Source: Ischnura elegans (taxonomy: Eukaryota; Arthropoda; Insecta; Odonata; Coenagrionidae). Taken from it: a stretch of 64,000 nt of DNA. Made by a program: the position numbers and the translations under genes. Numbering within the stretch: the stretch's first letter is position 1; the number at the start of each line of letters is the position of its first letter. The stretch is taken from the NCBI RefSeq assembly GCF_921293095.1, contig NC_060259.1, positions 76,318,120-76,382,119 of the forward strand, read 5' to 3'. Of this stretch, positions 27,503 to 63,212 are shown piece after piece. Below the pieces are notes generated by a model. That model did no database searches, was not told the origin of the DNA, and was given only the letters and a program-made list of their open reading frames with translations.

Positions 27503-28479
27503 CAGGGGCGCAGCCAGTAATAGGGTGGTTTCCTTCATCAAAGAAAACGAAAGGCATTGATTGCAATTCGTTACCCACCATTAGTGTATTCATAATACAC
27601 AAATTATTTGGTTTTTGAAATACCGGTTTAGACGAATGGCAAGGGTCAAATTTTATCCTCATTTGAAAAAGGCCAGATTGGCGCCCATGCGATTCCACTC
27701 CGCATGACGTCACAGGGACCTAGTTTCTACACGAGAGGATAGGAGTTATACATCGTCTGAGGTTACCAATGCATGCATGAGGCACAGAGCTCAGGGAAAC
27801 ATGTCTTAATAATCACCTTTTAAAAATGGCTAAGTTCGGAAAGTTTTCTTCGTTTGATAAGGTATTAATAAACCTTTTTTAAGCCAAGCGCTACCATCCA
27901 GCAAGGTACTCAGCTATCCGCTAGCATCCTGCGACGTATCAGCGCTAAGCCTCGCCTCAAGGTCACCTTACCAGGCGGGAGGGGGAACCAGAAATACGAC
28001 GTACGGAGATATTTCCCGGCATTCATACTTAAGCGTCGCGTTTTCGCGCGCTTGAAAATTTTCACTTTTTATTTAATCGCGAAAAATAGATGTTGTCATT
28101 TAAAAATCTAAAAGCGTGAAATTCGTACTCCAGGAGTAATAATCTTTTGATTAAAGCAATAAAAAAATAATAGGAAACCACCCTATTAAGGCTGGGGGGG
28201 GGGGGGGGTGGTTTAGGTGTAACTAATACCAGGGTGTGTGGGGGTATAGAATATTCACCAGGATAAGCGGTAGGTGCGAGATCAATAAATTGCGGAATTT
28301 TAAGATAAATGGTTCAAAATGGTGAGTTTTACAGCTTTCTGAGGGATATTTTATTAATGCTCACACTATTCTTTTAGTAATATCAATCCAATTAAGAATA
28401 ATGGATTAAGTTTAAGCATTTCTCTGATCTCTAGGGGGGGGGGTTTAACCCCCAAAACCCCCCCCTCGCTGCGCCAATG
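27503..28479 (+). mobile_element. hAT-like MITE, family A, copy 2, split by a TA-flanked MITE
   Basis: The left 20 bases (CAGGGGCGCAGCCAGTAA) lie before the TA-flanked element and the body resumes at 28184 with TTAAGGCTGGG. The end at 28479 is CTCGCTGCGCCAATG. The flanking target sequences are only roughly alike. G-runs of 15 or more occur near 28190-28210. Confidence 0.7.
27523..28183 (-). mobile_element. TA-flanked 0.65-kb MITE, family M, copy 1 (Tc1/mariner-type)
   Basis: The termini are GGGTGGTTTCCTTC and, inverted, GGGTGGTTTCCTATTATT, with TA on each side. Five copies occur in the window (here and at 39334, 58319, 61400, 62046). Shared interior marks are TGACGTCAC, CATGCATGCATGAGG, GCGCGCTTGAAAATTTTCAC and CTCCAGGAGTAATAAT. 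No intact transposase ORF is present. Copies 1 and 2 are inverted relative to copies 3-5. Confidence 0.85.
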
Positions 28480-36500: not shown

Positions 36501-37206
36501 TGTTCATGATTATGTTCTAAGTTGTGCTGTATTGTATGATGTGGTTATTGAGCGTTCTATTACGTTAGTTAATTTCTAGTGTTGGGGATATTAATTCGAC
36601 GAATTTATTTTGTAGTGTTTCTCATCTTATTGTTGGTTTTATTTCCGTGAAAACTAATTGCTATGCCTGTTGCTCACGGTGAAACTCGATTTATAAAACT
36701 TAGAAACGTTTTAAGGAATTTTAAGACTGACAATGAGACGACGGCAGAGGATCCGGTAAAACAGTTTATTTTCCATGGTGTCATAATCGAAAATAACGTA
36801 AACGAATGCACTCAGTAACTTCCCAAACACTGTTATTGAAACTATTGCATAGGGCTTTAATGTTAGTCCTAGGGATGCCGAGGGAGATAAGATGTGGCGA
36901 TTTCATTTGACGTGGGAGGAATTAATGGTTGAAATTTAACATCAATGGTTTTAATAAAGCAGTGGAATTTGACTAGCAATAAGTGTTTTTGTTTACGTTA
37001 TGAATATGTCATTCCACGAAGTCACGCTTAGTAATTCTAAATTCCTATGGCTCCATCACCTCTCGCCATATAGCGTTCCCTCAGGAACTGAAATCGGTCT
37101 TTCCTTTTAACCTTCTGAATCCAAAACGGTTAATTCACGGAGTTTGGAAGTTTATTTCAAATAACAGTCGCTTTGGATCAAAGAATCACTAATTGCCCAA
37201 GTAACA

Positions 37207-37480
37207 ATGACCGTTGGGCCTCGGTTGGGGAACCGTAGTCACGGTTGGCTCATTGTGGGTGGATATGCCTACCAAATTCCATTGTTGGCCCAACGCAGAT
37301 ATCGTTCGTTGGCCCAACGAAACGGTTTATGCTGTTGGCCCAACGCAGATATCGTTCGTTGGCCCAACGAAACGGTTTATGCTGTTGGCCCAACGCAGAT
37401 ATCGTTCGTTGGCCCAACGAAACGGTTTATGCTGTTGGCCCAACGGAAATCCCCAACGATGGCCCTACGAAATGGATTAT
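37207..37480. repeat. Left subterminal repeat array (50-bp units)
   Basis: Three complete 50-bp units start at 37284, 37334 and 37384, with a partial one at 37434. Each holds two near-palindromes GTTGGCCCAAC. Looser CCGTTGGGCC, CGGTTGGG and CGGTTGGC motifs precede them. Chance open frames through this array are not genes. Confidence 0.9.
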
Positions 37481-38940
37481 CATTGGGCCACCGTTGGGAC
37501 ATCATACCATTTTCTCACTTTCCGCCATGAGCGCTGCAAAAAAAATTCCGACAAAATTTACTGCATTAACGGCATGTCGCAGTTTTTCCCTAGATTTTTA
37601 TGAAAAAATTTCCATAATTGACTTTCTAAGGGAGCCGTGTATGAATTTTTTCTTTCACTAGAATATCCAGTCTACTTGGATTAAATTTCAAAATAAGAAT
37701 ATATATAGCCGACGGTGCTTGATTCACACGCGATATTTAGAAACAAATACTGCCGCGACTGCCGCCGATTTTTTCAAGTGAAAGTCGAACTTAACCAATC
37801 GATACAACGATTGAATCGACACCTCACAATCGAAAGAATCGGAACTCAATAATCGAACACTATCGATAGTCGATTATTTTCAACCATCCGACATCATTAC
37901 TACTCCGCAACTCAATTACAATTACTCCACAACTACAATGAACACCGCTGTTTACGTGGCAAAGCAAATATATGACATATATTAACAGCATGCGGCTTCG
38001 TCGTCTACCGCGGTCTGATGTTTACGCGGCGGAAACTGAGTTTTCGTTGACAACTCTCGTCGCGTAAACTGAAGCACGAAACTTACGCGGCGGAATGTTC
38101 GAAATGGCTTACTGAATAGACAATGGCTTAATGACATCAAAATTAATGGTAACCTAGGTGTGGCAATACCTTACCAACGTTAAGAGGTTTTTTGTATTTT
38201 ATATTGTTCATACTTTTTTCTTACCCTAGCCCTGATGATGATTTAAAAATAAATCGAAACGTTGGCTGAAACTTGTTTTTAAAATTGAACTAAACTCCAA
38301 GAAATTTCATATCGTATAATAAACAAGGTCAACAAACGAGAAGAATAATAATAATTACTGAATAGCAACAATGTGATTTTCGCGATCCCGTCACGAAATC
38401 TTTCGTCTTCGCGACCGCGTAAACAATTACTGCTGTTCAACGTGGACTTCATTTCGCGACGTGTTAGCTGATGCGGTAGCGTGGTGTTTTAGGAATACAT
38501 CTTGCCTTAGCAATAAGGAAAGAGGAAGAAAAAAGATCGAGTATTCCTGCACTCATTTTTCACACGCGGAAGAGGATATATTGTAAACGGTAAGTAATTG
38601 TATGCATATTAATAACGCATCCGCAGAGTAGCATTTCAGTCACGTGGGTTAATCCACAACTATGGCCGGTTTTTTGTAATTTTATGTGTATTATGTAGCG
38701 TTTCAGTGCTGGAAATATTTCCATGATTTGGAATCAAAATTGTAGTCATAAGTGTTGAATCTAACTAATACTTGTCTTACATCGAATTTGGTGAAATTTA
38801 AGCATGGCACGTCGTCGGGTTTTGTAAAAAGATTTGATGCTCTACTCTAGTCTTCGGTATACGGTGTATTTTCTTTGGTTAATATAAGCGAGTTTTCTTG
38901 AGATATGCAAGTTTTTTTGTTGCCAGATTCGGTAAGCGGA

Positions 38941-41900
38941 ATGTATAAGGTGGTGGAGTTTAGCAATGACCACTCCATTGGCATTGTCCATGCGGAGTGG
39001 CTAACTCCTAAAAAGAGGCATTGCCTATGGCCTCCTTATAAGGTATCCTCCCGTTATAATAAGTCGCTAACAGAAGGAGAAATGCCGAATGATTCGTGGG
39101 ATGTTTACCCGATCCATCGGACTTTTTATTCTACTGGTATGTATTTTTGGTAGTCTACACCATATAAATATTTCCAATTATCTTGCTACTTTTTCTGAAA
39201 AAGATTTAGGGGTCAGCACAACATAGGTCTCTTCAGTGTGCACAGAAACTGCTGTTACTATGTACTAATGTTCGTTTATATAATCAGAGTGGTCATTTCA
39301 ACGAAAATTCTCATATTTGGATTTCAGTGAATAGGGTAGTTTCCTTCATCAAAGAAAACGAAAGGCATTGATTGCGATTCGTTACCCACCATCACTGTAT
39401 TCATAATATACAAGTTATTTCGTTTTAGACATACCGATTTAGACGAATGGCAATGGTCCATTTTTATCCTCATTTGAAAAGGGCCAGATTGGCGCCCATG
39501 CGATGTCACTCCTCGTGACGTCACAGGGACCTAGTTTCTATGCGAGAAGATAGGAGTTATACATCGTCTGAGATTACCAATGCATGCATGAGGCGCAGAG
39601 CTCAGGGAAACATGTCTTAATAATCACTTATTAAAACTGGCTAAGGTCGGAAAGTTTTCTTCGTTTGATAGGGTATTAATAATCCTTATTTAAGCCAAGT
39701 GCTACCAGCCAGCAGGGTACTCAGCTACCCGCTAGCAGCCTGCGTCGTATCAGCGCTAAGCCTCGCCTCAAGGTCACTTCACAGGGCGGCAGCGGGAACC
39801 ACAAATGCGTCACACGGAGAGATTTATCCCGGCATTATTCATACTTACCCGTCGCGTTTCCGCGCGCTTGAAAATTTCCACTTTTCATTTAATCGCGAAA
39901 AATACATATCGTCATTTAAAAATTTAAAAGCGTGAAATACGTACTCCAGGAGTAATAATCTTTCGATTTAGGCAATAAAAAAATGATAGGAAACCACCCT
40001 AATCTCAGGGATATCAGATTTTTGCTGAGGGTACTTAGTTTAAGCAGTTAAGGCTTTCGTTTACTGCTTAGTTGTGACCATACGAGCTTTATTTTCCAAG
40101 GGAACTCATTCCTGATGTTGCTTCGAGCAATGGCCGCGAAAGTTTGAATATTATAGACGCGCAATACGTAGCGGCACTGTAATTTGCGTTGGATATCAAA
40201 TTTTCACAGGTTACATGTTTGCCTACAAATTAATGCAGTGATTTGAGCAGCAGTACCTCACCTTAAAGTTCTTATTACGTTAAGTAGTAAAATTCCCAAA
40301 TTTTTTATTTCGAAACTGCAAATAACGTCGTTATTAATGTTCCGTCGTACTTTTCCGTAACATTTATTCACGTGGAATTTGATCTTGATCCTTTATTCTC
40401 TTCATCCGCCCTACTTTTGCGACCTGTTCTTGTGATTGGCTGATACATGTTCATCAAAGAATCACGATAAGCGAATTTATGATTTACTTTTTGAAAATAC
40501 ATAAACCTTCTTAAATATATGAATCAATATTGTAGAAAAGGACCGTTAAGTAGATCGTGGAAACCTCCATCCTGCGAACAATGATGCTACTTTGATTGAC
40601 TGGCATCTGTAATCGTAGGTGTATTTGGCAAAATTGTTATGAAAAATGTGAAGAGTTGATTGGAATGCTGTTGGCTAACCATTTGTTCAATCGTCAGTGA
40701 AGAATGTCTTCCTACGTACGACATGTGTATAATTAATCTTTCGGTGATGATGTTTCTCTTACTATTTTAGATGAGTTATCTATAGCTAGACAGAAACTCA
40801 GGCAAGCAGAAACTGAATCAGAGCTGCTATCTGACTTTGAAGAGACAGGGAAGCGGAAACGAAGGAGAGCCGAGAGGTTTTCTCCAAGCGATAGTGACAG
40901 TGAGGACCAGACTCCCAGGAACATCATTAAACACTATCCACGGCCACCCACTGTGAATGATTCAGGTAATGTAAATGCCTATGTTTTTAATATGATGATT
41001 TACATGGCAGTAACATTCATGGGTATATTATTTTAATGAATTGTTTTACTAGTGTGGAGGACTTATAGTAAGTAAAGGCTATACTTATTAATTTTTCTAA
41101 TTTTTATATTTTTGCAGATGACGTACCTTCTCCAGAAACTGGTAGTGTGGGTGAGGAATCACCTTTAAATACTGAGAGGGAGGCAGAATCTCTAACTTCA
41201 CCAGGTAAATATTTCTTTGAGAAAAATATCTGTTCTGAAACTATACTAGATCCATGATGTTACTCTCTTAAATATTTGGATGTCACCTTGCTGGAAACTG
41301 TTGTGTAGTTGAAACATTCCAGAATAATGGGGAGCACGCATGAAATTTGTTCATCAAGCTAGTTAGTCTCATTGAATAGAAAAATTTCTCACGATTCCAA
41401 ATATATGTCAAAACTCTCCTAGTACTCCACAAATTTCAATAAATGCTAATTAAAAATGCTCGAATATCGCTTGAAGTCACGTGAACTGAAACGCCTTCTG
41501 ACTTCTTGGCACGGTACAATGGACACTTCGCTAAGAGAGTAGAGTGGTAAAGCCTTGATTAGAAGATATGGAAGCAAAAATCATCGACGTGTTTTGTAGT
41601 AGTTCCTAAAAGGACAAATTGACCACAGAGGGATTTAAGAAAGCACAATACCTCAGTTTACTTTTGGTCGACTTCCTTATGGTGGCTGATTTTCTGAAAA
41701 ACAGCGATTGCTTCATCACTAGCGCGATGCGGGAGTATAATAAGGCTGGTAAATAATTATGCAATCAATGAAAATTATTTTACAAACGTTTTTACATATT
41801 TATTTATCGTCCTTCAAGATTTAATGTATCCATTGCTAGCTGAAAATCTATCTAATGTGTCTGAAGTTCTGTTTTTAAAGACTCATAACTCAGCTAAAAA

Positions 41901-43296
41901 GCATTATTATTTTCCGCAAAACTTTCGGAGAGTACATTTGAGGCAGGGACCTTCTTATTCCAGTAATTTAAAAAAATATGCATGTTCCCCATTGTCAGAA
42001 CACAGTTACTGTGTAGTTCCCACAGTCAAGTTTCAGCAAAGATGCCACCTTTTGCCATTATAGAAATTACAAAAACTTAATGAAATGTCATAATTAATGC
42101 TGTTACTGAAATTTTCTTGAGAAGTTTCCCAGGCTAACTTGGTGGAGAATGTGGAAATACAATTTTGTTTTTCATAACCACTCTTTACAAACCTAATAGC
42201 TCTATGTTTCAATGTAATTAACTGTATAAGCAAACCTTAAGGACCACACACTAGTAGTAGGGTCTAGCAAGAGCCTTGTCATATCTCTCATTTATCTCTA
42301 TCATTTTTCGAAGTAATCTCATTGCAAAGGACTCAAGTAAATTTTTAAGAAGGAAGTCTTAGTACCCGAAAAGTGTAATTTGAAGTGTGTACTATAGTGG
42401 AAGAGCTACTGTTAATTAGCTTAAAACATGATATGTTCCCATTTTTTCAGTGGCTTCGCCTTCTTCACCTGGATTAGTGGCCATTGCCAGATATTTGGCC
42501 AAACTAGATAAGAAATTGGACGAGATATTGCAACATCAACTCGAATCCAAAAGCCCTACAGTTGTTGTTCCCAGAAGAATATGTGTGGCTGATACATTGA
42601 AGCTGCCTTGTGACAGTTATGATGAAGTTATGAAGATAGAAGAATTCTTAAAAGATGATGGTGATGATGTAACAGATTTTGTAAGTAGATATACATAATT
42701 ACATTATCAGCATTTTTCATGATTGATTTTGAGTAATTAATATCACTCGGATTAAACACCTGTTTTTTTTAAAATAACACTTAGTCAACTGTCTCATCAA
42801 AAACTGATTACTGCCATTTAAGTAAATGTATGGCTTCTTTCATGGGCTGATTTTATTGTTTTTGTGTTTTAGGAACACTGGCTGAGCCTTGTAGGAGGCA
42901 AAAAAGTAGAGCACATTGTTCGGCGGATGTTGGAAAGGTTATTCACCAATAGGATTGCAGCCGAGTACAACTGGACGGGTAAAAATAGTAAATACCCATT
43001 GAAAGACCTGAAGCTTATCAAGGTTATTTATAGTAAGTGTAATTGGTTTTAGGAAAATAATTCTAGTTTAATCCTTGCTGTGAGGAGTTGTAACTTTATT
43101 TGTATCATATACTACTATACCTAGTTAGTTTATTCTCTTGCTTGAAATTCACATTTTTGTTACAGGAGCTGTGAGAAGGAACCATAAGACATTGGATGTC
43201 ACAGATGATGAGATAAATACGATTTGCAGCAATTGGTTCAGGTTCACCAAGGATCGTGATGGAGGACGAGAGGCAAGGCGTAAGAAAGAGGCCTGA
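38941..43296 (+). CDS. DUF4806-domain protein of the CACTA-like element (six exons)
   Basis: The exons are 38941-39136, 40771-40965, 41118-41204, 42451-42680, 42873-43032 and 43166-43296, all GT-AG and phase-consistent, giving 332 aa. The frame is open upstream to 38905, but TTTTTTTGTTGCCAG at 38912-38926 is a strong acceptor, so MYKVVEFSND is the likelier start. The N-terminus (HAEWLTPKKRHCLWPPYK) resembles the opening found with DUF4806 in other arthropod proteins. The middle is charged and low complexity (KRKRRRAERFSPSDSDSED). The segment from about 160 is helical and K/E-rich (ARYLAKLDKKLDEIL). Residues about 215-325 are the DUF4806 domain (EHWLSLVGGKKVEHIVRRML, LFTNRIAAEYNWTGK, RAVRRNHKTLD). 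Its role is unknown. As a second protein beside a tnp2 transposase it may act like plant TNPA and bind subterminal repeats, which is inference. Confidence 0.85.
39334..39999 (-). mobile_element. Family M MITE, copy 2, in coding intron 1 of the transposon gene
   Basis: The ends are GGGTAGTTTCCTTCATC and, inverted, GGGTGGTTTCCTATCATT, flanked by TA on both sides. The interior matches copy 1 closely over the whole length. It lies between exons 39136 and 40771, so it leaves the reading frame untouched. It is the innermost layer of the tower. Confidence 0.88.
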
Positions 43297-45370
43297 TGAC
43301 TTGAACCTCTGTAGTTACAGTGGTTTGTCCCTACGTTCCAAACGTCGAACTGTTGCTAATGAAGTAGGGAAAGTGCTTCAGGAATTGGGGGCTTGCAATA
43401 CAATAGTAAAACAGGTGGATGATAATGGAGTTGAAAGTAATTTTGTACATTTTAGTGTGCATTCAGATGAGTCGATACAGGTGGATGATGGTGTTATAAA
43501 TAATTCTGTAAATATTAGTGTGTCTGCAGATGAGTCTTGTTATAATAAATCATCATCCAAATCTGAAACAAGTGAGTTGGAGAGTGATGATAGTTATTCC
43601 ACCCCACCCATCCCATGTGACGAGAATTTGCCTGAGAAATTGAGAGTGTGGAGTATGACTCATAATATTCCTACCAATGCTCTGACTGAGCTTTTACACA
43701 TATTGCAGCCATATCATGAAAGTTTGCCCTTGGATGGTCGTACTTTATTGCACACCCCTAAGTCCGCTCACAACATAACTGCCTGTTGTGGGGGCTCCTT
43801 TGCATACTTTGGTGTGAAAGGGAATGTGTTGAAGAGAGTGGCCTCTGGTTTGGTACCTTGTAAGTATCCCTACGTCAAGAAATTGGCTTCTACATACAGT
43901 GATATTTTAACTGTTACTGTTAGTGTTGATGGTTTGCCCCTTTTTGCAAGCTCTACAAAATCTTTTTGGCCTATCTTAGGGATCCTAGATCAAGCCGTTG
44001 ACAAAGTGCCTTTTGTAATTGGTATTTTTTATGGACCTGAAACTAAGCCAAGTAATTCTAATGAATTTTTAAAGATGTTTGTAGATGAATGCTTGATACT
44101 GCAGTCAGAGGGAATTATAGCTAATAATAAGACTTATTCATTTCGTGTAAGTTGTGTTGTGGCTGATGCTCCAGCTAGATCATTTGTGAAATGTATTGCA
44201 CCTCACAACTCACTCCATGGTTGTGAGAAGTGTGTTCAAGAAGGTGTATTTGTGGGTCGAGCTACCTGGCCTTACTCTAATACCTTGCAGCTGAGGAAAG
44301 ACAGTATCTTCAAAAATCTTGGCTATGAGGATCATCAGCGTGACAGAAGTAGGCTTTCTGATTTGGATCTAGGTTTAGTCACTCAGGTGCCCTTGGATTA
44401 CATGCACCTAATATGTTTAGGTGTCATGAAAAGGCTAATCCGGATTTGGGTAGAGAAAGGCCCAAGACATTGTAGACTGGGGTCAGTTAGCCGAGACGAA
44501 CTTTCCAAGAGATTAGTATCATTATCTAAGTTTATCCCCAAAGAGTTTTCACGTAAACCAAGGTCACTTAAATACTTTAAATTTTGGAAAGCAACTGAAT
44601 TAAGATCATTTTTATTGTATTATGGGCCCTATGTTTTAAAAGATGTTCTTCATAAAGATTTGTATGAACATTTTCTAATTTTACATTGTGCTATGTATAT
44701 ATTGTGCAGTAATTTGTCGGAAGACAAGAAGTGGGTGTCTTATGCTAATGAATTGCTCCACCTCTTTGTGGAAAATATTCAAAAAAGGTACTCTAAAGAG
44801 GTTTTAAATTATAGCATGCATAATCTCTTACATGTATGTGACGACGTCAAAAATTATGGGAGCTTAGATAATTACTCAGCTTTTCCATTTGAGAATTTCA
44901 TGAGCAGACTGAAGCGGTTAGTAAGGGGTCCAAACAGACCTCTTCAACAAGTCTCAAATAGAATACTGGAGATGAGTGTGTCTGGGAGTACTCGTGTTCC
45001 AAAATCGCAAGGTGGTGATGGGTCTAATCTCAGGGTGATTTGTCCCAGTAACTTGCATGGTTGTTGCCTAAGTGTATTCTCCCCAGACTCGGCCTTTGTC
45101 ACCAAAGACCAGAGAATAGGCATTGTGAAGGCAATTGAGTCAAATAACTCTGGGGTGTACATCTTGCAGTGTGAAATATATGAAATAAAGGAGGATTTCT
45201 TTGAATTACCTCTTAGAAGTGGTACCATTGGCATCTTTGTAGTAAAAAAATTAGTACCTGGATGCAAATTGCAGTCCGACCAGATTTTGTCTAAGTGTGT
45301 TTTGTTGCCCTACAAAGAAGATGGACAGTTTTTGTGTGTGCCATATTGTAATATGGAAAGGTGCTGTTAA
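43259..45370 (+). CDS. tnp2-like (CACTA/EnSpm) transposase ORF, 703 aa
   Basis: A single uninterrupted ORF from ATG at 43259. The N-terminal 110 residues are acidic and low complexity. The core carries VSVDGLPLFASSTKSFWP (Asp about 224), FVIGIFYGPETKPSN, VSCVVADAPARSF (Asp about 303), a Cys/His knot HNSLHGCEKC (about 320-330), PLDYMHLICLGVMKRL (Asp about 380, His about 383) and FENFMSRLKRLVRG (Glu about 545). These patterns fit the tnp2 transposases of CACTA-like elements in animals. The acidic residues are candidate DDE positions, by inference. The start overlaps the last 38 nt of the DUF4806 gene in another frame. No stop or frameshift is present, so the gene looks usable. Confidence 0.88.
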   Translation: MEDERQGVRKRPDDLNLCSYSGLSLRSKRRTVANEVGKVLQELGACNTIVKQVDDNGVESNFVHFSVHSDESIQVDDGVINNSVNISVSADESCYNKSSSKSETSELESDDSYSTPPIPCDENLPEKLRVWSMTHNIPTNALTELLHILQPYHESLPLDGRTLLHTPKSAHNITACCGGSFAYFGVKGNVLKRVASGLVPCKYPYVKKLASTYSDILTVTVSVDGLPLFASSTKSFWPILGILDQAVDKVPFVIGIFYGPETKPSNSNEFLKMFVDECLILQSEGIIANNKTYSFRVSCVVADAPARSFVKCIAPHNSLHGCEKCVQEGVFVGRATWPYSNTLQLRKDSIFKNLGYEDHQRDRSRLSDLDLGLVTQVPLDYMHLICLGVMKRLIRIWVEKGPRHCRLGSVSRDELSKRLVSLSKFIPKEFSRKPRSLKYFKFWKATELRSFLLYYGPYVLKDVLHKDLYEHFLILHCAMYILCSNLSEDKKWVSYANELLHLFVENIQKRYSKEVLNYSMHNLLHVCDDVKNYGSLDNYSAFPFENFMSRLKRLVRGPNRPLQQVSNRILEMSVSGSTRVPKSQGGDGSNLRVICPSNLHGCCLSVFSPDSAFVTKDQRIGIVKAIESNNSGVYILQCEIYEIKEDFFELPLRSGTIGIFVVKKLVPGCKLQSDQILSKCVLLPYKEDGQFLCVPYCNMERCC

Positions 45371-45639
45371 AATTGTCCTAATTTGTGATAATAAAAGTTG
45401 GGGACCTTCTGAACTGATATTGATTTTTTGTTTTCCACTTTTAACCACTGTAACCTTACTTTGTCCTATAGCATTGATTGTTAATATATTTAATTTCATT
45501 TTGATTTATAGGGAGTTAAAGGTAAAGATTCTACCTACCGGTATCATATCAAGTGAGAAGGTAAATTAATTTAACTTTCATTCTATAAAAATGAGAAATG
45601 CCTGTAAAACATAGCTTTTGTTGGGAAATGGATGGCAGA

Positions 45640-45952
45640 ATTTAAAAGGGCCAACGGTGTATCGTTGGAGATTTGTTGGCCTTGGGTTGGGAACACGAAG
45701 GCCCGACTGTAATGCTCTGTTGGCCCATCGTTGGGGAATCGTTGGTTGGGATACGGTTGGCGAGGTGGCCAAATCATACCATGGGCCAACCGCTGTGTCC
45801 CACCATCTGCCAACAGAGGGCCAACCAAAAAAATGCTCTGTTGGCCCATCGTTGGGGAATCGTTGGTTGGGATACGGTTGGCGAGGTGGCCAAATCATAC
45901 CATGGGCCAACCGCTGTGTCCCACCATCTGCCAACAGAGGGCCAACCAAAAA
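45640..45952. repeat. Right subterminal repeat array (two 121-bp units)
   Basis: Two nearly identical 121-bp units begin TGCTCTGTTGGCCCATCG at 45713 and 45834. Each holds several GTTGG or CCAAC motifs in both orientations (CGTTGGGGAATCG, ATACGGTTGGCGAGG, GGGCCAACCGC, TGCCAACAGAGGGCCAACC). The motif core matches the left array, although unit length differs. Overlapping open frames here are chance products of the repeat. Confidence 0.9.
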
Positions 45953-47081
45953 TGTTACTTGGGTGCTCTCCTAGACCTTCATCTGTCAACATAACTGTTT
46001 CCCGATATAGACAATCACGGTGCTGAAGTCGACTTAAAGCTCAAGTGTAGCTACCGCACCATATTTAAGATTACATTTAAGTGAAGTCACTTAAGTTAAG
46101 TGTGTAGTGTAGACAAGGCATATGAGAGGCAGTTGGGGTTTGGCAGCGAAACAGTGTGTACGGCTTGGGCTGAATAAAGCAAGTTGCTATGTGTGAGAAT
46201 TTGGACTTGTTCCCTGCTTTGTTTCCCCCGAACCCCTTTATCGTCGGCGAAGACGACTTACACAAATAATTTAAGCTAAATTTTACCCGTATTTAGCTTT
46301 AAAAAATATTTTTTTAAGTTCCACCTTTTAGGGGTGGTTTTCACCCCTAAAAAAATAAAAAGCGCCCTTCGGCATAATATAGATTTTGAAGTAGGGGGTA
46401 TAATTAGTCTAATCCCAAATTTTGGTGCAAATCGATTCAGTTTGAAAAAATTGCAAGGTTTTTCACTTTTATGAGCTTCATTTCCTGGACTATATGGAAA
46501 CTCAATATAAATAATGGAACTGATTGAAAGGCATGAAAGAAAACTGGGCTCTCTCTAGATTTTCGGCATATCACCTGAGATATGAAGGCCATAGGTACCC
46601 TGAAATGTCGATTATAGAAAACTTTACAATTATTACGAACATTGCCCCTAAAAGTGATTGCAATACCATGCCATTCATCACCACGAGTGAAAGAGCAGTC
46701 AAAAACGGTCAATTCAGGTCGCGAGTAACGATCATCAACCGCGACATCTTCGAAGAATGATAGCGATTGGACTGTGTTTGAGAATGACCTATGCAATGAG
46801 CAATCACGAATGACCTAATGGCTGGCGATTGACGGAGAATGACCACAATCACGAATGACCTGCGTCTAGAACAATCATGAATGACCTGCGTCTAGCACAA
46901 TCATGAATGACCGACGATCGCGACTGATGGAGAACGTCCACGGCGGTCCACGGTCACGAACGACCGACGGGAGGAAATGACCCTCTCGGTCATCTGAATG
47001 ATCCCGTTCACCGATCAATCTCGGAGATGACCCTGGTCACATGATTCGATCGTTCATGACCGACCCATCACTACACGGTGC

Positions 47082-57334: not shown

Positions 57335-58318
57335 TGAGAATATATACAATAGAGGAAGTTGCTTCAAGAAGTGAGACAATAAAGAACTCAGTAATTTGAA
57401 GAAAATAAAGAGGTATTTTGGAAAAACAATCGGCTGACGTTACACTACCAATAGCCGTGTTTGGCCACTCGCGTTTTGTTCACACCAGACTAAGTAGAGA
57501 CGGGCACTTTGCAAGTGAGTCGGCACCAACCAGGGGCAGTCTGGTCAGGTCAGCTGGTTGTGGCCAACAAGGGGACCCCCACAATGCTCACATCTATCGT
57601 GAAGCCTATACAAAAAAGTTTAATAAAAATGACTCGAATTACTTGGACCAAACTTTTTTTGCAATTATGAAATCCTAAATTTTCATTAGCTGCTTTATGT
57701 ACAGCATGCCGAGTGTAAAACGATCATATAAAAAACAAATTCAGTAAAGGTGTTGGAAGAATAAAGATAACCCTGATGCTATTTTGAAAGCATTTTTTTT
57801 TTAAGTTTTCAAAAAAATAGTGTTCCCCGTAACAATGTGAAAATGGATTCCTCAAAAAGTATTCCACTAGTAAAATTTTGGACAATTTTGTAAAATTAAT
57901 GCAAATATTTCTTAAAAGGATTACCTATTTTCGAGGTTTTCTTACATTTCAGTGCAGTTTTAGGGAGCAAATTCACTAAATAGATGATGGAAACATGATC
58001 TATTATTAAATTACGTAAGCTGTGGAATTATCATTTTTCATGATATTTTTTCTCACAATATTGCTATTTTTTATCATCGTTTATCTAGTTTTAAGTGCTA
58101 GAATAGCGTCAAATATCAATTTCCGGGCATGCAAATTCAGGGCCCTCAATCATCCCAGACCGCCAGTGGCACAAACGTGCGACTACGCTAAAAGAGCGGA
58201 GTGGCACGCTAGTCCCTCCCCGATCGGGCGCGACTGGCTCGTCGTGCAACAGGACTCTTCTTTGTGTCGCAGGGAGTTCAGTTCCTAGAGAACGTATTTG
58301 TTCCAATGCTTTCCAATA
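57335..58318. other. Repeat-like stretch without a recognised gene
   Basis: It contains the segment at 57535-57635 shared with 31746-31880 (reverse). A GC-richer block at 58100-58290 (GCATGCAAATTCAGGGCCC onward) differs in composition from its flanks and may be a separate insertion. Open frames are short and unrecognised. Confidence 0.4.
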
Positions 58319-58961
58319 GGGTGGCTTCCTATTATTTTTTTATTGCCTAAATCGAAAGATATTATATATTACTCCTGGAGTACGCATTTTACGCTTTTAG
58401 ATTTTTAAATGACGATATCTATTTTTCGCGATTAAGTGAAAAGTGAATATTTTCAAGCGCGCGAAAACGCGACGGCTAAGTATGAATGCTGGGAAAAGCC
58501 TTTGTGACGTCATTCTGGTTCCCGCTGCCGTCGTGTGATGTGACCTTGGGGCGAGGATGTGTGCGCCGCTACGATGCAGTCTGCTAGCAGGTAGCGCTTG
58601 GCTCAAATAAGGATTATTATATCCCTATCAAACGAAGGAAACTTTCCGACCTTAAGCAATTTTAATAGGTGATTATTACGAGATGTTTCCCTCAGCTCTG
58701 TGCCTCATGCATGCATTGGTAATCTCAGACGATGTAAAACTCCTATCTACTCGTATAGAAATTAGGTCCCTGTGACGTCACGTGGAGTGGCATCGCATGG
58801 GCGCCAAACTGGCCTTTTTCAAATGCAGTTAAAATTGACCATTGCCATTCGTCTAAACTGGGATTTCTAAAACCCAATAATTTGTATATTATGAATACAC
58901 TAATGGTGGGTAACGAATTGCAACCAATGCATTTCATCTTCTTTGATGAAGGAAACTACCC
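58319..58961 (+). mobile_element. Family M MITE, copy 3
   Basis: The ends are GGGTGGCTTCCTATTATT and, inverted, GGGTAGTTTCCTTCATC, with TA on both sides. Interior marks are as in copy 1 but inverted relative to it (CAAGCGCGCGAAAACGCGAC, GACGTCACGTGGAGTGGC). Confidence 0.85.
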
Positions 58962-58988
58962 TATTTATCACCGATAGGCGTCATAAAT

Positions 58989-61399: not shown

Positions 61400-62041
61400 G
61401 GGTGGTTTCCTATTATTTTTTATTGCCTATATCGAAATATTATTACTCCAGGAGTACGCATTTCACGGTCTTATAAGATCTATAGAATTTCGAATGACGA
61501 TAGGTATCTATTTTTCGCGATTAAACGAAAAGTGAAAATTTTCAAGCGCGCGAAAACGCGACGGCTAAGTAGGAATGATGGGAAAAGCCCGTGTGACGTA
61601 TTTCTGGTTCCAGCTGTCGGCGTGTGAGGTGTCCTCGGGGCGAGGCTTGAGCGCTGATACGACTCAGGCTGCTAGCAGGTAGCGCTTGGCTCAAATAAGG
61701 ATTATTATAACCCTATCAAACGAAGGAAACTTTCCGAACTTAGGTAATTTTAATGGGTGATTATTAAGAGATGCTTTCCTGAGCTCTGTGCCTCATGCAT
61801 GCATTAGTAATCTCAGACAATGCAAAACTCCTATCTACTCGTATAGAAACTAGGTCCCTGTGACGTCACGTGGGGTGGCATCGCATGGGCGCCTTTTTCA
61901 AATGAGGTTAAAATTGACCATTGCCATTCGTCTAAACTGGGATTTCTAAAACCACATAATTTGTATATTATGAATACATTAATGGTGTGTAAGGAATCGC
62001 AATCAATGCATTTCGCTTTTCTTTGATGAAGGAAACTACAC
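61400..62041 (+). mobile_element. Family M MITE, copy 4
   Basis: The ends are GGGTGGTTTCCTATTATT and, inverted, GTGTAGTTTCCTTCATC. The left flank is TG rather than TA, the right flank is TA. It is separated from copy 5 only by TATA (62042-62045). Confidence 0.82.
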
Positions 62042-62045
62042 TATA

Positions 62046-62706
62046 GGGTGGTTTCCTATTATTTTTTTATTGCCTAAATCGAAAGATTATTACTCCTGGA
62101 GTACGTATTTCACGCTTTTAGATTTTTAAATGACGATATCTATTTTTCGCGATTAAATGAAAAGTGAAAATTTTCAAGCGCGCGAAAACGCGACGCGTAA
62201 GTATGAATGTCGGGAAGTCTCTCCGCGTGACGTATTTCTGGTTCCCCCTCCCGCCCCGCGAGGTGACCTTGAGGCGAGGCTTAGCGCTGATACGACGCAG
62301 GCTGCTAGCGGCTAGCCTAGTACCCTGCTGGCTGGTAGCGCTTGGCTTAAATAAGGATTAATAATAACTTATCAAACGAGGAAAACTTTCCGACCTTAGC
62401 CAGTTTTAATAAGTGATTGTTAAGACATGTTTCCCTGAGCTCTGCGCCTCATGCATGCAATGGTAACCTCAGACGACGTATAACTCCTATCTTCTCGTAT
62501 AGAAACTAGGTCCCTGTGACGTCACGTGGAGTGGCATCGCATGGGCGCCAATCTGGCCCTTTTCAAATGAGGATAAAAATGGACCATTGCCATTCGTCTA
62601 ACCCGGCATTTCTAAAACAAAATAATTTGTATATTATGAATACACTAATGGTGGGTAAGGAATCGCAATCAATGCCTTTCGTTTTCTTTGATGAAGGAAA
62701 CCACCC
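62046..62706 (+). mobile_element. Family M MITE, copy 5
   Basis: The ends are GGGTGGTTTCCTATTATT and, inverted, GGGTGGTTTCCTTCATC, with TA on each side. It is the best preserved of copies 3-5 and lies head to tail directly after copy 4. Confidence 0.85.
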
Positions 62707-63212
62707 TATTGCAGGGAATACTCGGGAGTGTGGGTACGCGCAAGTAGGGTTGAAAGTCAATGAACGACGCCTCTATGTTATGAAAGATGTGCATGTGATT
62801 CTCCTGATAGTTTGATACATTCATTTTGAACTTTAAATGAGAATTCAAAGAAGTATGAAAATAAGAAAATCATCAGTATATATCGATACTCGAATGCTCG
62901 TCATATATGTGGTCTTTGTAATGAAGTTTTATTGTCCTCTAAATTTTAGCAATACCGTTGTCACACCCAGCGCATTCAGAGTTTGTTAAGTTAGATGTAA
63001 AACTTACTTCCATGGAGATTCGGAAAAACTACCTGCATATATATCGGAAAAAATTTAGGGCCATCACAGGATCTACACCGCTGTCGATGTACTAGCTGTC
63101 TTCAACGAGTAAAGCAGTATATTTTGGTGATCAGAAGGGGTACGCTAAGCCTATCCCCCCGTAAAGCTCGTATAATAGTTCGGAATTCCTCTCCAGCGTG
63201 TATTCCTTGGAC

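Follow-up and report, generated by a model that had tools for sequence, protein, structure and literature searches.

An apparently complete two-gene TRC-type transposon in Ischnura elegans and the recurrent pairing of its transposase with DUF4806 genes

The stretch of Ischnura elegans DNA studied here, which we call the window, is 64,000 nucleotides long (NC_060259.1 of assembly GCF_921293095.1, positions 76,318,120 to 76,382,119, forward strand). At 37196-45963 it contains an element with two genes, one for a DUF4806 protein and one for a transposase related to those of CACTA transposons, and a gene pair of this kind recurs across divergent element families in the same genome. The element is probably a young, apparently complete, two-component cut-and-paste transposon of the TRC type, with the DUF4806 protein serving as its own DNA-binding partner. 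A sequence-only reading of the window by a model had already described it as an apparently intact two-gene CACTA-like transposon. The two genes, their apparent integrity and the CACTA relation hold up; the termini begin with CCC rather than CACTA, and the target duplication is 2 bp rather than 3.

Results

Ends and genome-wide copies

The termini match perfectly over 11 bp, CCCAAGTAACA on the left and TGTTACTTGGG on the right, as the sequence-only reading had it, and the junctions read aatTG/CCC and GGG/TGctc, a 2-bp duplication. The subterminal arrays noted in that reading are likewise present at both ends, a 50-bp unit repeated 3.3 times at 37283-37445 and a 121-bp unit repeated 2.0 times at 45711-45952. 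Of the motif GTTGGSC/GSCCAAC the left 320 bp hold 15 copies, where 300 shuffles gave a mean of 0.29 and at most 2; the right 330 bp hold eight (shuffle mean 0.34, maximum 3), and the interior of the element holds none. For the looser 5-mer GTTGG/CCAAC the counts are 19 and 20 for the 330-bp ends and eight for the 8108 bp between them.

Other copies with these ends, for which the sequence-only reading had proposed a search, are numerous. The genome (1.7227 Gb in 110 contigs) holds 156 exact left ends (23-bp pattern) and 159 exact right ends (24-bp pattern), and the reversed-pattern control gave 0 for each. Among the matches listed, 81 of 100 left ends are paired with a same-strand right end within 20 kb, and the paired-end lengths cluster near 1548, 1734, 1983 and 2604 bp. 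Ten pairs taken at steps from the pairs under 3.5 kb all show an exact 2-bp duplication, and 3-bp identity is seen in none of them; with the window element and the copies L039 and L008, the 2-bp duplication is present in 13 of 13 copies read. L039 is a second full-length copy of 8549 bp, with different flanks and its own duplication, TT. Aligned over 8459 bases, with 71 mismatches and 5 gaps, it is 99% identical to the window element; for the first 185 bases the figure is 92%. L008, 1734 bp long and flanked by the duplication TA, is an internal-deletion derivative in which both termini survive along with some of the 3' end of the transposase. The CCC core is found at the terminal inverted repeats of all three copies.

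Two observations concern the distribution of these sequences. At C2:31219601-31234607 two window-family ends lie 15 kb apart with a transposase of a different family (L019) between them, so that one transposon may have inserted into another. Contigs C13-C17, 4.3% of the genome, carry 28 of the 83 transposase matches listed (the best-scoring only), 14 of them on C14. These contigs would be chromosome 13 of I. elegans and its unlocalised scaffolds, where PMC10781644 places the female-morph locus.

The two genes

The splice sites and both reading frames are sound, as the sequence-only reading claimed: the DUF4806 gene has six exons, every intron is GT..AG, and the predicted products have 344 and 703 amino acids. 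The transposase open reading frame (ORF) has its start within exon 6 of the DUF4806 gene. Splicing to an acceptor at 43230 or 43242 would put exons 1-5 in frame with the transposase, for a potential fusion of about 1010 amino acids (43166-45370). Intron 1 contains a repeat of about 670 bp that resembles a miniature inverted-repeat transposable element (39330-40001; ends AATAGGGTRGTTTCC/GGAAACCACCCTAWT), and four further copies, 81-93% identical, lie in the window at 27515-28185, 58317-58965, 61400-62044 and 62044-62710. Since L039 aligns straight through the intronic repeat, its insertion is older than the split between the window element and L039. The features of the element are collected in Table 1.

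Table 1. Predicted features of the window element (window coordinates)
Feature	Positions	Strand	Basis or remark
Left 2-bp target duplication copy, TG	37194..37195	.	sequence
Left terminal inverted repeat, CCCAAGTAACA	37196..37206	+	11 bp perfect against right end; genome-wide end matches
Left subterminal repeats, including seven perfect palindromes GTTGGcCCAAC (37284-37444)	37213..37505	+	
DUF4806 exon 1	38905..39136	+	N-terminal domain common to other element families
DUF4806 exon 2	40771..40965	+	stop in this exon in copy L039
DUF4806 exon 3	41118..41204	+	
DUF4806 exon 4	42451..42680	+	DUF4806 domain begins
DUF4806 exon 5	42873..43032	+	DUF4806 core, BEN-like
DUF4806 exon 6 with stop	43166..43296	+	38-nucleotide overlap with transposase start, different frame
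CMCT-clade transposase ORF with stop, 703 amino acids	43259..45370	+	D224, D303, C322-x2-C325, H521-x3-H525, E545
AATAAA, possible polyadenylation signal	45390..45395	+	
Right subterminal repeats, including 121-bp x 2 array	45648..45952	+	
Right terminal inverted repeat, TGTTACTTGGG	45953..45963	+	perfect 11-bp partner of left end
Right 2-bp target duplication copy, TG	45964..45965	.	sequence

Pairing of transposase and DUF4806-type genes

How regular is the association of the two genes? Of 1029 transposase candidates 63 were scored matches, and the best 30 of these loci were examined together with flanks of 1.5 kb. The scan for downstream exons used a profile trained in rounds on the same loci, with L017 extended and L010 left out as the same copy as L039. 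At 27 of the 30 a DUF4806-type coding stretch adjoins the transposase and shares its strand; several of the loci are near-identical copies, so that the 27 do not equal 27 independent families. The DUF4806-type exon lies upstream of the transposase at seven loci, those of the window's clade (L009-L013, L015, L023), and downstream at 20; within the 1.5-kb flanks none was found at L014, L025 and L033. In the transposase tree the five upstream-type rows tested fall on one side of a branch with support of 100/100, which suggests that the gene order probably switched once. That tree is unrooted, its long branches meet near the gene-order fork, and L025 and L033 carry the label of the majority order despite the missing DUF4806 exon.

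The association also appears when the search starts from the other gene. The DUF4806 N-terminal domain of L017, a member of a distant family, has 59 matches in the genome at E<=1, counting the query locus and the window. Of the 59, 24 are no more than 12 kb from a listed transposase, all on the same strand, where 0.37 would be expected at random positions; we discounted one of these, at 11.9 kb, leaving 23. For 22 further matches, at 21 loci, 1.7-2.5 kb of upstream DNA was read: 13 have a transposase stretch, three a weak one (L052, L053, L093) and six none. Together, 36 of the 45 matches examined, out of the 59, adjoin a transposase. The sequence-only reading had asked whether DUF4806 genes generally neighbour such transposases; in this genome most of those examined do. 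The window's own DUF4806 protein has 100 matches in the genome; the transposase tally covers the 59 found with the L017 query.

Twelve distinct DUF4806 N-terminal sequences could be aligned, and across 12 families the transposase and DUF4806 N-terminal distances correlate (Mantel r 0.594, p 0.0001), as expected if both genes travel together. A genome-wide search with Pfam PF16064 gave no match, nor did it for 14 controls; introns that split the domain may be the reason, and absence is not implied. On viral contigs, 28 stretches matched the transposase pattern and none was confirmed.

The transposase

The window protein was aligned with 12 genomic relatives that share 31-36% identity with it; among these rows L018 lacks a start, and L016 and L018 are near copies. 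The columns of D224, D303, C322-x2-C325, H521-x3-H525 and E545 are invariant in all 13, and by their pattern these residues may have catalytic roles. A D, D, C(2)C, H(3-4)H, E arrangement is the pattern of the CMCT (CACTA/Mirage/Chapaev/Transib) clade (PMC12730594).

The sequence-only reading named this protein a tnp2 transposase. For the window protein itself the Pfam tnp2 family (Transposase_21) gives no match even at E<=1, and the best Pfam match, DUF1258 at E 0.034, is under its cut-off. The relation is seen only through the relatives: at E<=1, two of the 13 aligned transposases match Transposase_21 (best 1.9e-4) and ten match DUF4218 (best 8.7e-5). A PDB search found no match for the window transposase, and the 13-row profile found three irrelevant ones (E 1.5-2.4).

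The ratio of nonsynonymous to synonymous change (dN/dS) is low, 0.14-0.41 in six transposase gene pairs with 3 to 49 changes per pair, two stop codons having been skipped in the L027/L028 comparison. These values are consistent with purifying selection until recently. Comparison of the window element with the damaged copy L011 gives ratios of 0.34 (transposase) and 0.31 (DUF4806 exons 4-6).

The DUF4806 domain

The window protein passes the gathering score of Pfam DUF4806 (PF16064), with 30.7 bits against a cut-off of 25 and an E value of 4e-7. When a seven-row profile of the DUF4806 core was compared with 177635 PDB sequences, the BEND6 BEN domain ranked first (7yul; E 0.022, 67 of 93 positions), and an earlier five-row profile gave the same best match at E 0.39. 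The likeness is suggestive of a BEN-like core. BEND6 itself belongs to the host, whereas the window gene sits inside transposon ends. DUF4806 has been called a BEN subtype in PMC11075544, which cites Pan et al. 2023.

More distant families

Do other families have ends of the same design? Copies A and B, of the L028/L031 family, encode a transposase 33% identical to the window's, have the transposase first, and span 8.2 kb, with ends CCCAGC..GCTGGG and duplications CA and TT. Copy D, of the L020/L021 family (transposase again 33% identical), runs from CCCACACAGCA to TGCTGTGTGGG with duplication GC. The ends of A and B and the left side of C and D were set by breakpoints between copies, and the right end of D by motif search; the right end of copy C was not found. 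All four copies begin with CCC, and in A, C and D the predicted DUF4806 start lies 364-404 nucleotides past the transposase stop.

The ends of copy D carry GGAATATTCC/GGATATCC palindromes, with 29 motif matches in the right 480 bp (shuffle mean 1.5); its interior has the motif at 0.5 per kb and no full palindromes. Palindromic repeats confined to the ends are therefore seen in two families with different motifs, GTTGGcCCAAC in the window element and the GGAATATTCC type in copy D. The sister family L012 has the gene order of the window element, GTTGG/CCAAC repeats and the end TGTTACTAGGG. For families 17, 24, 26, 28 and 35 a search of the first stretches by the rule of CCC/GGG ends plus a 2-bp duplication gave no credible pair, and one end pair for family 26 was dropped because it ended inside the DUF4806 gene of that family.

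Discussion

To which class does the element belong? We class it as a TRC-type element within the CMCT clade, rather than as CACTA sensu stricto, because it has CCC termini and 2-bp duplications, as do the TRC elements of Schistosoma, Tribolium and Aedes. TRC elements, described for SmTRC1 of Schistosoma mansoni and relatives in Aedes and Tribolium, have CCC ends and 2-bp duplications, the 2-bp repeat being present in seven of 14 Schistosoma copies (PMC1636069). The Tribolium end CCCTAGTAGCA is close to CCCAAGTAACA of the window element and to CCCTAGTAACA of the L012 family. The CACTA-related transposase is a further likeness, and SmTRC1 also encodes at least one further protein. For its second proteins, PrA and PrB, the authors found no relatives, and the portion of PMC1636069 consulted names no DUF4806 partner. 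CACTA/En/Spm in the strict sense is ruled out: the termini are CCCAAGTAACA and not CACTA, and a 3-bp duplication is seen in none of the ten sampled pairs, whereas typical EnSpm elements have CAC.. ends and 3-bp duplications (PMC12730594). With Plavaka, ESTA, Lanisha, Mirage, Chapaev and Transib the element shares the D-D-C(2)C-H(3-4)H-E transposase and short duplications, 2-5 bp in those groups; it differs from most of them, which have CA..TG termini, and from some fungal Plavaka elements, which carry a TET/JBP gene instead of DUF4806 (PMC12730594). As TRC elements have been known since 2006, the window element is not itself a new kind. In the open-licence literature, Repbase being outside the search, we found no account of the DUF4806-TRC transposase pairing, of its near-regularity or of the difference in gene order.

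What might the DUF4806 protein do? Maize En/Spm, with its TNPA and TNPD, offers a parallel, having two proteins, repeats at both ends, and deletion derivatives that are mobilised in trans; the deletion derivatives of the window family might be mobilised in the same way. The CCC ends and 2-bp duplication of the window element set it apart from En/Spm, and to our knowledge TNPA is not a DUF4806 or BEN protein. In the mechanism that we propose, the DDE transposase would cut at the CCC/GGG ends and insert with a 2-bp stagger. The BEN-like DUF4806 domain would recognise the palindromic subterminal repeats (GTTGGCCCAAC in the window element), and the DUF4806 protein, by binding them, would bring the two ends together and position the transposase, as TNPA does for TNPD, and so might be necessary for transposition. 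A transposase without a Pfam-recognisable DNA-binding domain, together with a BEN-like partner, fits a two-component transposon. Because the two reading frames overlap or lie close together on one strand, a single primary transcript probably yields both proteins, either through alternative splicing or with two cistrons.

An appreciably less likely reading makes the DUF4806 protein a transcription regulator or anti-silencing factor encoded by the element, acting on chromatin as BEN proteins do and standing outside the cutting complex, with end binding serving the promoter of the element. Plant TNPA does bind DNA and regulate its element's promoter (PMC1636069), and the left repeats of the window element lie upstream of its genes. 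The repeats are found at the right end as well, however, beyond the genes, and L008, which has no complete genes, keeps them at both ends. It is unlikely that DUF4806 is a captured host gene or passenger with no role in transposition. Transposons do pick up passengers, and repeats that carry DUF4806 in the absence of a transposase exist (L047-L049), but a passenger would hardly be expected to accompany the transposase at 27 of 30 loci, across families whose transposases are about one-third identical, with distances that co-vary and, in exons 4-6 of the window and L011 copies, a dN/dS of 0.31. That the genes are neighbours by coincidence in a repeat-rich region, and the ends a chance pair, we regard as very improbable. 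Both genes are multi-copy in this genome, yet the full unit of 8.5-8.8 kb recurs with different flanks and its own 2-bp duplication each time, and the same-strand proximity of the 24 DUF4806 matches to transposases far exceeds the 0.37 expected.

Several results weigh against a two-component transposon with DUF4806 as its binding partner. No transposase was found, in the DNA read, beside six of the 45 DUF4806 matches examined (L042, L044, L047, L048, L049, L057). Three of these, L047-L049, are related repeats with a DUF4806-type exon and no transposase in 2.5 kb upstream; they have 83-91% DNA identity to stretches of the transposase-bearing locus L046, and look like derivatives of transposase-bearing repeats. 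Upstream of the match, LINE (long interspersed nuclear element) and piggyBac sequences are found at L042 and L057 by ORF reading, and at L057 the 3.5 kb downstream is also without a transposase of this kind. For L044 no explanation was found. Copy L039 has a stop in the DUF4806 gene with its transposase frame open, so that of the two full-length copies read only that in the window has both frames open. The E values of the BEND6 matches are weak. When five DUF4806 regions from other families were joined, at approximate splice sites, two matched Pfam DUF4806 below the cut-off (1.8e-4, 5.2e-5) and three gave no match; our own profile recovers two more, L012 (best piece 4.9e-7) and family C/D (5.8e-5), and its value of 0.84 for the L035 region is not convincing. 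The single-sequence structure prediction for the transposase (mean predicted local distance difference test score 39, predicted template modelling score 0.25) is too poor to use. Finally, strong subterminal repeats are lacking in copy A, where the most frequent terminal 6-mers number five each, and this speaks against end-confined palindromes as a universal rule.

DUF4806 has no assigned Pfam function, and in animal genomes it has been described as an expanded family whose role is unknown (PMC7642931, PMC13270666). Its recurrent pairing with a transposase across related transposons of this genome suggests what the family may be for. We put at about even the chance of a broader proposition, that BEN-like DUF4806 is the standard second transposition protein of animal TRC transposons, co-evolving with the palindromes of each family, in which case most of the DUF4806 "genes" assigned to lineage-specific expansions among animals, such as those of Hydra, an ambrosia beetle and zebrafish chromosome 4, would be transposon genes or their descendants. 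If so, a regular partnership with TRC transposases would assign DUF4806 a function, and the CACTA-related elements of animals would gain a TNPA-like partner, for which the 2006 TRC paper had a candidate without relatives (PMC1636069). Many annotated DUF4806 genes may then be mobile. BEN DNA-binding domains would also be linked to transposons, and some BEN host proteins may derive from, or be the source of, proteins that bind transposon ends.

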